From the NCBI GenBank assembly GCA_021799715.1, contig JAJYZY010000046.1, positions 1 to 17,173 of the forward strand: 17,173 nucleotides of DNA, given 5' to 3'. Below are positions 5,441 through 11,178 of this stretch, piece after piece. This DNA is from Planctomycetota bacterium. Its GTDB lineage: Bacteria; Planctomycetota; Phycisphaerae; WQYP01. Under the pieces are notes generated by a model. That model was not told the DNA's origin. It ran no database searches and saw nothing but the letters and a program-made list of their open reading frames with translations. Numbering within the stretch: the first letter of the stretch is position 1; the number at the start of each line of letters is the position of its first letter. Made by a program: the position numbers and the translations under genes.

Positions 5441-6982
5441 ATGGGCGGTATTGAGTCGGATTCCCCAGAGCGTCAAAAAAAAAGTATGTCCCGAAGTGTA
5501 TCGCTGCCCTGTCTGAATCAGCAGCCGCTGCCCCTTGATGGCCTGCGACAAGTGCTTGGTGACTATGAGAAAAAGGAAAAGTGCGGCGTATTTGGCGTGG
5601 CCGGACCGCGCGATGCCGTCGAACGCTGCTACTACGGGTTATATGCCCTGCAACATCGTGGACAGGAATCCGCGGGTATTGCCACCACCGACGGCCAGGC
5701 TATAGCCGCCCATACCGGCCTGGGTCTGGTCGCTGATGTTTTCAATAAAGGCGTGCTGCGGGAACTCAATGGCATCGCCGCCATCGGCCATGTGCGCTAT
5801 TCCACCGCCGGGTCAAACCGCAAATGCAATGCCCAGCCGCTGCTGGAGGAATACAGTGAAGGCCAGGTGGCCGTTGCGCACAACGGAAATTTAATCAATG
5901 CCGCGCGCTTGCGGGCGGAATATCAGAAATATGGCCATATTTTTTATTCCACCAGCGATACGGAAATCGTCATTCACATGCTGGCCAAACCCACCCATCA
6001 GGAAAAAAGCGATCCGCTGGCGCATGTCCTGCGGCATTTACAGGGCGCTTTCAGTTTTCTGTTTTTATTCAAAGACCGTATTGAGGCGTGTCGTGATCCA
6101 TGGGGCTTCCGTCCGCTGGTGATCGGTAAAACCCGCGACGGCTTTTATTGCGTAGCCTCGGAAACCTGCGCGTTGGCCAGCATTCAGGCCACGTTTATCC
6201 GTGAAGTGCACCCCGGTGAAATTATCACCATCGACATTGGCGGTACTCAACTCACCAGCCGCTACTTCATTGAAACCCCCGAAACCCCGGCCCATTGCGC
6301 CTTTGAACACGTTTATTTCGCCAGTCCCTCCAGCACGATTTTTGGTGATACGGTTCTAACCGTGCGCCAGAAGATGGGCCGGCAATTGGCCATTGAAGCC
6401 CCGGTTGACGCTGATATTGTCATACCGATTCCCGACAGCGGGCGCTCGGCGGCGCTGGGTTACAGCAAGCAGAGCGGCATTGCGTTTGAAGAGGGAATTG
6501 TGCCCAACCGGTACGTGGGGCGTTCATTTATCCAGCCATCCCAACAGATGCGCGATCTAGCGGTCCAGATGAAATTAATTGTGATTCCCGAAGTTGTCCG
6601 GGGCAAGCGTGTTGTGGTGGTGGAAGATTCGATTGTCCGCGGGACAACCACACGCGGAAAAATTCTGGCTCTGCGGCGGGCCGGGGCAAGGGAGATACAC
6701 ATGCGGGTAAGCTGCCCGCCGATTCGCCATCCCTGTTTCTATGGCATTGATTTTCCCACGCCCACCGAATTAATCGCCAATGGGCGAACCGTGGAACAAA
6801 TCCGTGATTTTATTGAAGTGGATTCTCTGCATTATCTGTCGCTTGATGGCATGTTGTCCTGCCTGGGGCAGCCGGAAACGCACTATTGCACGGCCTGCTG
6901 GTCCGGGCGCTATCCCATTCCGGTTGATAACACCGTCAGCAAATTCGGCTTGGAACGCCATCAGATGAAAATGTTTGAGTAG
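5441..6982 (+). CDS. purF: Amidophosphoribosyltransferase, Fe-S type
   Basis: First committed enzyme of de novo purine synthesis: PRPP plus glutamine gives 5-phosphoribosylamine. The N-terminal Ntn glutaminase domain begins at the catalytic Cys of KEKCGVFGV (residue 48 from this start), followed by QHRGQESAGI, GHVRYSTAG and AHNGNL. The phosphoribosyltransferase domain carries VVVVEDSIVRGTTTRGKI. The four cysteines expected for the B. subtilis-type [4Fe-4S] cluster are present: in PAHCAFEHVYFA, HPCFYGID and HYCTACWSGRYP. ATG 5441 has GGAG nine bases upstream; TTG 5426 and ATG 5486 are in-frame alternatives, the latter lacking a ribosome site. In each case the pre-cysteine peptide, which must be cleaved, is long (32-52 residues). 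A run of nine A (5475-5483) lies inside this propeptide. The gene is monocistronic. Confidence 0.95.
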   Translation: MGGIESDSPERQKKSMSRSVSLPCLNQQPLPLDGLRQVLGDYEKKEKCGVFGVAGPRDAVERCYYGLYALQHRGQESAGIATTDGQAIAAHTGLGLVADVFNKGVLRELNGIAAIGHVRYSTAGSNRKCNAQPLLEEYSEGQVAVAHNGNLINAARLRAEYQKYGHIFYSTSDTEIVIHMLAKPTHQEKSDPLAHVLRHLQGAFSFLFLFKDRIEACRDPWGFRPLVIGKTRDGFYCVASETCALASIQATFIREVHPGEIITIDIGGTQLTSRYFIETPETPAHCAFEHVYFASPSSTIFGDTVLTVRQKMGRQLAIEAPVDADIVIPIPDSGRSAALGYSKQSGIAFEEGIVPNRYVGRSFIQPSQQMRDLAVQMKLIVIPEVVRGKRVVVVEDSIVRGTTTRGKILALRRAGAREIHMRVSCPPIRHPCFYGIDFPTPTELIANGRTVEQIRDFIEVDSLHYLSLDGMLSCLGQPETHYCTACWSGRYPIPVDNTVSKFGLERHQMKMFE

Positions 6983-7027
6983 ACGGGTTGTTACGCGGTA
7001 CGTATGGCCATTGCCCGGCCTGTGAGG

Positions 7028-7421
7028 TGAGGTACTCCCTGTAAGCTGGACGCGAAACAGGCCTTGCTGAAAGAGAGTCTTCTTCCTGCAATCCCGACCG
7101 CCATCGGGACTCATACAACAGCGCCGCTAACGCCGGCGACAAATGGTCCAAACCTTGGCCGGAAGATTCCTCAAACGCCATCGCGGAATATTCAAAGAGA
7201 TGTTTTTTCCACGCGGCAATCCGCGACGGATGAACCTGGTATAGCCCCTCCAACTCCTCGATGGTCCACTGTCCCTTCACCGCCTCCATCGCCAGCTTCG
7301 CTTTGAACTGTGCTGTAAACCGCTCCCGATACTCATCGGGACTTCGCTGACATAACACTACTCCAAAAAGCCGGGTCAAAAGCTACCGTAGCATCGCGCC
7401 CAGTTTTTGGGGAGTATTACA
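7028..7421 (-). mobile_element. Internally deleted IS3-family element (relic, both ends present)
   Basis: On the minus strand the left end begins at 7421 with TGTAATACTCCCC and the right end finishes at 7028 with GGGAGTACCTCA. When inverted, the two 26-bp ends match at about 18 of 26 positions and keep the TG...CA termini usual for IS3 elements. Between them lies only the beginning of an IS3-type orfA; orfB, with the DDE catalytic domain, is missing. The total is 394 bp, far short of a complete IS3 element (about 1.2-1.5 kb). No target-site duplication is evident (AGG before, CCC after). It lies 45 bp beyond purF and 76 bp from tRNA-Asp. Confidence 0.65.
7140..7353 (-). pseudogene. IS3-family transposase OrfA, N-terminal fragment, frameshifted
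   Basis: The reading frame contains YRERFTAQFKAKLAMEAVKGQWTIEELEGLYQVHPSRIAAWKKHLFE, matching the N-terminal helix-turn-helix of IS3-family OrfA (FKAKVALEA..., VHP..I..WKK). The likely original start is ATG 7353, with GGAG seven bases upstream. It reads MSAKSR and then meets TGA; the homologous frame resumes at once one frame over (DEYRERF), which points to a one-base deletion or similar indel near 7336. After about residue 80 the family similarity ends, with no leucine-zipper region. The protein would have bound the element's ends; it cannot be functional now. Confidence 0.7.
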
Positions 7422-10198: not shown

Positions 10199-10927
10199 TT
10201 ATCCCAATGTATCAACCGAGTTGTCCATGACGTTACCGACCCTGCTGATTGTAATAAGAAGCGGGGTGCCACCGATCGATCGCATGAGGCCGGCGCAGTG
10301 GTGTAGATCGGAGATAAATCCGATCCATGCGACCAGAAGGTCGGCTCTGGATCGCAATGAATCCGCGGGTACCGGATTGCTGATCGAATCGGCTTGCAGG
10401 CGTTCGAGAAAATCGGGGGTTGCGGCCAACCGGTAGTACGTCGTGTCGCCGTCCGCAGTGGACCACGGTTTATGATCCAAATTGGAAAAGCGTGTCTGCC
10501 GGGAAACCTCGAATTCCGGCAGGGCACCGCCATGCAAGTCATAATTGGATATTTTGTAAGAAACCGGCATGGGCCGGCCCCCCCTTGATTCGTACCCGCT
10601 GACGCGGAAACCTAATTCCGGCGCTCCCGCGGCACCGTGAAGCTTTTGAACCGTGCTTCGCAGGGTGTACGCGGCTTTCTCCAGAGACGCGATGTGCCCA
10701 TGCCGGGTGATGAAATCTTCCATCCAGAGGTCTGTGGGAGTATGCCCAATTTTTCCGATTCCCCATGTGGCCACCATCCCGGGCAAATTCAAAAAGCGCT
10801 GCAGCTTTTTCATCCCGAAAGATACCCGCAATTTACGTCCGCTTTCGGTGTCAGCTTCAATCGATTCCGCCGTATCCGCCGCCATGACAACGCCGTGATT
10901 GGAAATATCTGTCAAAATCAGGGTCAT
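10199..10927 (-). CDS. Proteasome-fold Ntn hydrolase-like protein
   Basis: 242 aa, related to the proteasome beta/HslV/Anbu fold. Counting the Thr after the initiator Met as 1, the protein has Thr1, Asp17 (in HGVVMAADT) and a KKL at 39-41, aligning with the catalytic Lys33 region (GKKLFQI in the Thermoplasma beta subunit) after a short insertion. Next come GMVATWGIGKIG, like GMTIAGLVGDA in beta subunits, then a long helix region (68-95), FRVSGYESRGGRPMPVSYKI, like the VGGxD...xxxSID strand pair, and SIGGTPLLITIS near the end, like the terminal GGxIDVAVI strand. Thr directly after Met would be exposed by methionine aminopeptidase without a propeptide. It overlaps the upstream 84-aa gene by 4 bp (ATGA) and precedes rph. 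No AAA+ unfoldase is in the window. Peptidase activity is inferred; a non-proteolytic Ntn amidase is possible. Confidence 0.7.
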   Translation of the reverse strand: MTLILTDISNHGVVMAADTAESIEADTESGRKLRVSFGMKKLQRFLNLPGMVATWGIGKIGHTPTDLWMEDFITRHGHIASLEKAAYTLRSTVQKLHGAAGAPELGFRVSGYESRGGRPMPVSYKISNYDLHGGALPEFEVSRQTRFSNLDHKPWSTADGDTTYYRLAATPDFLERLQADSISNPVPADSLRSRADLLVAWIGFISDLHHCAGLMRSIGGTPLLITISRVGNVMDNSVDTLG

Positions 10928-11178
10928 GCGCGCACAGGACTCCGGAAGGTCTTCCAGCCGCCGGCTATTTCGCGCACTTGTTTATCTGCGGCCAGTTCGA
11001 CCTCCCGCACGTAGTCCGTGCCGAAACAGGTTTGCATATCAAACCGCGCGTCCAGCGGCACTTCCACCTTGACTGTGGCCAACACACGGCCGGCGGGATT
11101 AATAGCGTGCGCTGTATAGGTGTGGCCGGAGCTTCCTTTGAGCCACTGCCCGCGGACTTTGATCTTTTTGCTTACCAT
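10924..11178 (-). CDS. Unknown 84-aa protein, translationally coupled to the Ntn hydrolase
   Basis: I recognise no family. The protein is small, basic at the N-terminus (MVSKKIKVRG) and beta-rich in appearance (GHTYTAHAINPAGRVLATVKVEVPLDARFDM); it lacks a signal peptide, membrane segment or zinc motif, and has one Cys in TCFGTDY. The ATG at 11178 has AAAAGGA about ten bases upstream. Its TGA overlaps the ATG of the Ntn hydrolase gene (ATGA at 10924-10927), so the two are almost certainly translated together and may act together as substrate, adaptor or subunit; that role is inference. A candidate extended -10 promoter lies just upstream. Confidence 0.7.
   Translation of the reverse strand: MVSKKIKVRGQWLKGSSGHTYTAHAINPAGRVLATVKVEVPLDARFDMQTCFGTDYVREVELAADKQVREIAGGWKTFRSPVRA

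Follow-up and report, generated by a model that had tools for sequence, protein, structure and literature searches.

Introduction

Proteasome-type hydrolases of the N-terminal nucleophile (Ntn) superfamily use a free N-terminal threonine, activated by a lysine and an aspartate, and cleave their substrates via an acyl-enzyme. A 2021 survey by Fuchs, Alva and Lupas (PMC8665760) named 22 new proteasome-like homologs and considered many more to be likely; it reports finding no genomic context that pointed to a specific function of these homologs. Here we describe a gene for a putative stand-alone member of this superfamily, located at 10199..10927 on the minus strand of a 17,173-nucleotide stretch of planctomycetal DNA (contig JAJYZY010000046.1; the whole stretch is called the window below), together with a small gene that overlaps it. 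The literature searched contains no description of this hydrolase family or of such a partner gene among the matches listed.

Results

Catalytic residues and family conservation

The open reading frame (ORF) runs from 10927 to 10199, starts with ATG and encodes 242 amino acids; the plus strand, translated across the same interval, is interrupted by stops. The initial annotation, made from the DNA letters and ORF translations, had recognised a proteasome-type Ntn hydrolase by a Thr directly after Met, an Asp 16 residues later, a KKL motif and three strand motifs. All of these features are positioned as claimed: T2, D18, KKL at 40-42, and the strand motifs GMVATWGIGKIG at 50-61, FRVSGYESRGGRP at 107-119 and SIGGTPLLITIS at 217-228. 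The conserved Lys lies 23 residues past D18, compared with 16 in proteasomes (Asp17 to Lys33), which agrees with the proposed 7-residue insertion before the Lys. On the minus strand, the codons are at 10922..10924 for Thr2, the proposed N-terminal nucleophile (Thr1 once Met is removed), 10874..10876 for Asp18 (equivalent to Asp17), 10805..10807 for Lys41 (equivalent to Lys33) and 10760..10762 for Gly56, the probable equivalent of the oxyanion-hole residue Gly47.

A sequence search returned six proteins at E<=0.001, the window protein included, and a profile built from these six found 48 proteins at E<=10 (weakest E 0.0016), none of which carries precomputed Pfam domains. Counting only rows with a letter at the position, the 48-row alignment is invariant at T2 (46/46), D18 (47/47), K41 (48/48), G56 (48/48) and W68 (48/48). 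We extended the set to 59 sequences with eight proteins from further family loci (L004-L011) and the boundary members L034, L055 and L058; some genes enter twice, from different sources. The hydrolases of the three closest loci, L001-L003, were left out of the counts and of the clustering below, as proteins of the same clade were already in the database set. Conservation is again complete for T2 (57/57, with a gap in two of the 59 rows), D18 (58/58, one gap), K41 and G56 (both 59/59). Because these residues are kept across 48 and then 59 sequences, the motif match goes beyond chance. The residue preceding Thr is Met in 55 of the 59 sequences (Val in one, Leu in one, gap in two), in keeping with the claim that there is no propeptide.

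Thr and Asp lie 16 residues apart in 56 of 57 sequences. The Asp-Lys spacing is 24 (n=27), 22 (n=12), 23 (n=6), the canonical 16 (n=5) or 21 (n=3), and the remaining members have 14, 15, 19, 25 and 28 (n=1 each). Thus, the length of the Asp-Lys loop varies among family members, and since five of them have canonical spacing, the same family Lys falls at the place of Lys33.

We considered whether the protein might be an inactive scaffold or binding protein that retains the fold, much like a proteasome alpha subunit. The family has an N/D-G-D stretch that presumably aligns with proteasome Ser129, and at this presumed place it differs from the proteasome, as such a scaffold might. A scaffold would nevertheless be expected to lose the invariant Thr, Asp, Lys and Gly, with the Thr right after the start residue, and we regard this explanation as very improbable.

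Predicted structure and superfamily placement

Structure prediction and fold comparison, which had been proposed as a check on the annotation, yielded a model with the proteasome beta-type Ntn fold. Sequence identity is 10-19% over the 50 structural alignments listed, which include 20S beta/HslV and Anbu. The model has helices at 65-75 and 82-97, and an 11-residue loop joins helices 171-179 and 191-211, which we assign as H3 and H4. The last strand (233-235) is followed by 7 residues without a helix. Residues 20-41 contain no helix, with low confidence in this region. The two predicted helix pairs make oligomerisation plausible. As far as the family definition given in PMC8665760 is concerned, its Ntn fold is found in the predicted structure, and its Thr1/Asp17/Lys33 set with Gly47 is found in the conserved residues, with the equivalence of Gly56 taken from the alignment.

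The hydrolase resembles 20S beta subunits and HslV in its fold and catalytic residues, with identical spacing in five family members. It differs from them in lacking a propeptide and in matching no Pfam family (PF00227 included) and no NCBIfam family (the HslV equivalog included) at E<=1. No alpha subunit, HslU or other unfoldase gene was seen beside it among the ORFs of the window, which were read by eye with no family search of every ORF; the initial annotation had also seen no unfoldase neighbour. Three related genomes (G001-G003) have no PF00227 protein and no HslU above the cut-off, and they belong to the 60 of 101 relatives in which PF00227 is lacking. Anbu, which the annotation had named as a possible relative, has a C-terminal helix H5 or coiled coil, whereas the modelled hydrolase has no H5 after its last strand and no PF00227 match.

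A wider profile of 67 sequences, comprising the family, Roseomonas-type proteins and boundary proteins, matches a pooled HslV and 20S beta profile with E 1.4e-4, its N-terminal half in register and K41 aligned with the HslV Lys. In the same type of comparison (HMM-HMM), three unrelated control profiles gave E 0.035, 0.31 and 0.45. The family profile alone matches the pooled profile with E 0.0015. We then grouped 97 sequences by BLAST single linkage, which gives linkage and not a tree, with the search space set to imitate the 2021 survey. At E 1e-10 there are seven groups: the window's family (59), a group of 25 made up of 446-residue and 439-residue relatives and Roseomonas-type proteins, 20S (6), HslV (4) and three singletons. 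The groups of 59 and 25 merge at E 1e-5. The hydrolase family appears to form a new branch within an established superfamily. Further unnamed proteasome-like proteins (L034, L050, L055, L058-L071) match the family profile weakly in genomes sampled from three phyla.

The PMI homologs (group II) share the Thr-Asp-Lys set and a MAADSAVT-type motif with the hydrolase family. The 446-residue relative L035 matches phrog_5990 (E 7e-107) and 13 phage records; it is probably PMI-4, because Table 1 of PMC8665760 marks no other PMI cluster as occurring in phages. The family profile matches L035 and L036 with E of about 1e-10 over 96 columns in the N-terminal part. Members of the hydrolase family are mostly 240-285 residues long, compared with 439-446 for the L035-type PMI relatives, and they cluster separately at E 1e-10. 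According to the survey, PMI-2 to PMI-6 are marked by an insertion between H3 and H4, where our model, by our own assignment of these helices, has an 11-residue loop. The survey gives both a RefSeq accession and a KEGG cluster number for the representative of PMI-1, whereas 10 of the 11 close loci found in our contig scan (see below) are labelled as metagenome-assembled genomes (MAGs), which argues against identity with PMI-1 but does not settle the matter. The phage-encoded proteasome-like proteins A0A8S5LJV3 and A0A142KAQ6 have predicted structures that align to the hydrolase model with TM scores of 0.68 and 0.64 (query length), at 15-16% sequence identity. A tblastn search of the phage collection with the window hydrolase gave no match at E<=1.

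The overlapping 84-residue partner gene

The initial annotation had noted a pairing with a small protein. Directly upstream of the hydrolase gene lies an 84-codon gene (11178..10924, minus strand), whose stop overlaps the hydrolase start in an ATGA (10924..10927). This junction recurs in L001, L002 and L003. At L003 (2870-3234), the hydrolase gene breaks off near residue 88 and resumes in another frame for its C-terminal end, through either an internal deletion or faulty assembly; the partner is intact. The partner occurs in three of 101 genomes related to G002, and the family profile matches four of the 101, namely the same three, where the two genes are adjacent, and the distant G349. A database search with the partner returned four proteins, two of them labelled Phycisphaerae by their source and one identical to the L003 copy.

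The window partner is 81-92% identical to the seven other rows of an eight-row alignment, two of which are identical. Its dN/dS is 0.050-0.177 in six pairs, the window pairs being high at synonymous sites; for the hydrolase, three pairs gave 0.056, 0.085 and 0.081, and synonymous sites are close to saturated in both pairs that involve the window. These values suggest purifying selection on both genes. The model of the partner (pLDDT 80.6; below 50 for residues 75-84) predicts a beta-beta-beta-alpha protein of three strands and one helix, and a structural search with this model gave no significant match.

In G349, the hydrolase relative (L074) is preceded by a gene for a 118-residue protein with the same ATGA overlap as in the window. 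This protein aligns to the 84-residue profile in one register, with a best BLAST E of 0.013, an HMM score of 5.5 bits and an hhalign E of 0.021 (probability 2.3%). The score of 5.5 bits was reached by one of 1548 scored shuffles (2000 made), and in a search across all loci a similar 84-residue profile gave unrelated ORFs scores as high as 9.9 bits. The relationship is marginal, and most of its weight comes from gene order and overlap. The DNA examined at L004-L011 contains no recognisable copy of the partner.

The main alternative to a hydrolase is a sequence-specific transpeptidase or protein ligase that resembles connectase and works as a monomer on the partner or on another protein; an amine and not water would then resolve the Thr1 acyl-enzyme. 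Both proteins have a Thr nucleophile, and the survey's account of connectase places it in the same family, with an insertion between strands 3 and 4 (PMC8665760). The corresponding hydrolase segment is also longer, by 7 residues over proteasomes, and poorly ordered, and a co-translated partner with a low-confidence C-terminal tail could be a ligase substrate. Connectase, as described there, lacks H1 and H2, whereas our model has helices 65-75 and 82-97 and no helix in the S3/S4-region segment (low confidence). Given also the eight family loci with no recognisable partner in the DNA examined, we consider a ligase unlikely.

Distribution and genomic neighbourhoods

A pattern scan of genome contigs from a collection of 84,980 species matched 68 stretches, and 18 loci were confirmed, 11 of them close and seven weak. 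The close loci belong to Phycisphaerales/Planctomycetota, Deltaproteobacteria, Terriglobia, Methanoperedenaceae, Bathyarchaeota, Dehalococcoidia and Chloroflexales. The weak loci (E 3e-5 to 4e-4) come from Roseomonas-type bacteria and from one further alphaproteobacterial MAG. Across genome samples drawn from four phyla, the family profile matched 6/294, 11/301, 1/300 and 6/297 genomes, the centre genome being counted each time; matches beyond the centre genomes are weaker and represent other proteasome-like proteins or boundary members. The hydrolase family is rare and patchy.

The window neighbours resemble RNase PH, FabG/SDR, LpxD, PtsI and PurF, judging from their sequences, and the purF-like gene adjoins an ORF (6936-7379, minus strand) that we take to be an IS3-type transposase orfA. 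At other loci, our scan covered 30 neighbouring ORFs, picked by eye from the 87 with at least 100 residues. At L004, the hydrolase gene lies 76 bp downstream of a type I restriction operon (HsdM-HsdS-(weak PDDEXK)-HsdR), and a weak HEPN gene lies farther along. Within 10 kb there are HEPN_Swt1 at L005, a transposase at L006, HD-CE and Cas1 at L007, and Schlafen AlbA_2 and a terminase at L010. Among the scanned neighbours at L008 and L011, there are no defence or mobile-element genes of this kind.

These neighbours raise the possibility of an effector or accessory in defence or mobile-element conflict, that is, a protease triggered by stress or infection. The patchy distribution and the 446-residue relatives in Streptococcus phages would fit, but the scanned neighbours were picked by eye, and the pair in the window lineage has what we take to be a stable housekeeping context. 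As a control, we compared 98 ORFs of at least 150 residues, from eight arbitrary windows of four of these genomes, with a different library, PADLOC; they matched 62 PADLOC families at E<=1e-10 (among the matches listed, SoFic in two ORFs). Enrichment is thus not shown, we claim no defence association, and we consider this explanation improbable.

A relative of the 446-residue protein L035 lies near the record end in eight of nine Streptococcus phage or satellite records (for example MK448317.1, 9274-10434 of 10653; the exception is MK448488.1), a position where cargo genes are typically found; in four other phage records it lies away from the very end. A DUF4352 or DUF4352-like gene adjoins the proteasome-like gene at three Chloroflexota-type loci, L008 (2-475), L010 (7434-8498) and L073 (10543-11052), as judged by a Pfam match for L010 and by eye for the others.

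Discussion

The observation at 10199..10927 is confirmed as real, and its interpretation as a proteasome-type Ntn hydrolase is supported. The best overall explanation, which we consider probable, is that the gene specifies a proteasome-like hydrolase that is stand-alone and catalytically competent. Several points weigh against it. The match of the wider profile to HslV and beta subunits has an hhalign probability of 53%, and the 48-row family profile alone reaches only E 0.01-0.04 (HslV 0.037, beta 0.011), compared with 0.10-0.39 for three unrelated controls. Model confidence is low in the Asp-Lys segment adjoining the active site (pLDDT 61-62), and the secondary active-site residues seem to differ from those of the proteasome at the presumed place of Ser129. 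As the partner is recognised in only one lineage and one marginal case, the chemistry of the family should be independent of it. Finally, connectase is an example, in the survey's description, of the same fold serving as a monomeric ligase (PMC8665760).

The case for the stand-alone hydrolase is built on computed properties, namely fold, conserved residues, gene overlap, purifying selection and rarity; Met removal, peptidase activity, assembly and the partner's role are what we infer. Methionine aminopeptidase would remove the initiator Met and expose Thr1, which would be activated by K41 and D18. Gly56 would sit in the oxyanion hole as the Thr hydroxyl attacks a peptide bond, and water would free the product from the acyl-enzyme. 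Assembly would most likely be through the flanking helices, and the substrates would most likely be unfolded proteins or a dedicated substrate, handled with no specialised AAA+ motor. In the window lineage, translation would be coupled to that of the beta-beta-beta-alpha partner, which, judging from gene overlap and conservation, would be a stoichiometric adaptor, regulator or substrate.

More tentatively, the overlapping pair may be a two-component, unfoldase-free system, in which the partner is made one-to-one as a dedicated adaptor, a gate, or a substrate for ligation or degradation. If so, the superfamily would have a partner of a type new to it, and an evolutionarily old one, because the distant L074 keeps the overlapping arrangement. 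Motor-free proteasome-like proteins bear on the origin of the proteasome and on roles of its fold beyond degrading tagged proteins, and the conserved overlapping pair offers a concrete, easily expressed test of regulation, substrate choice or ligation.
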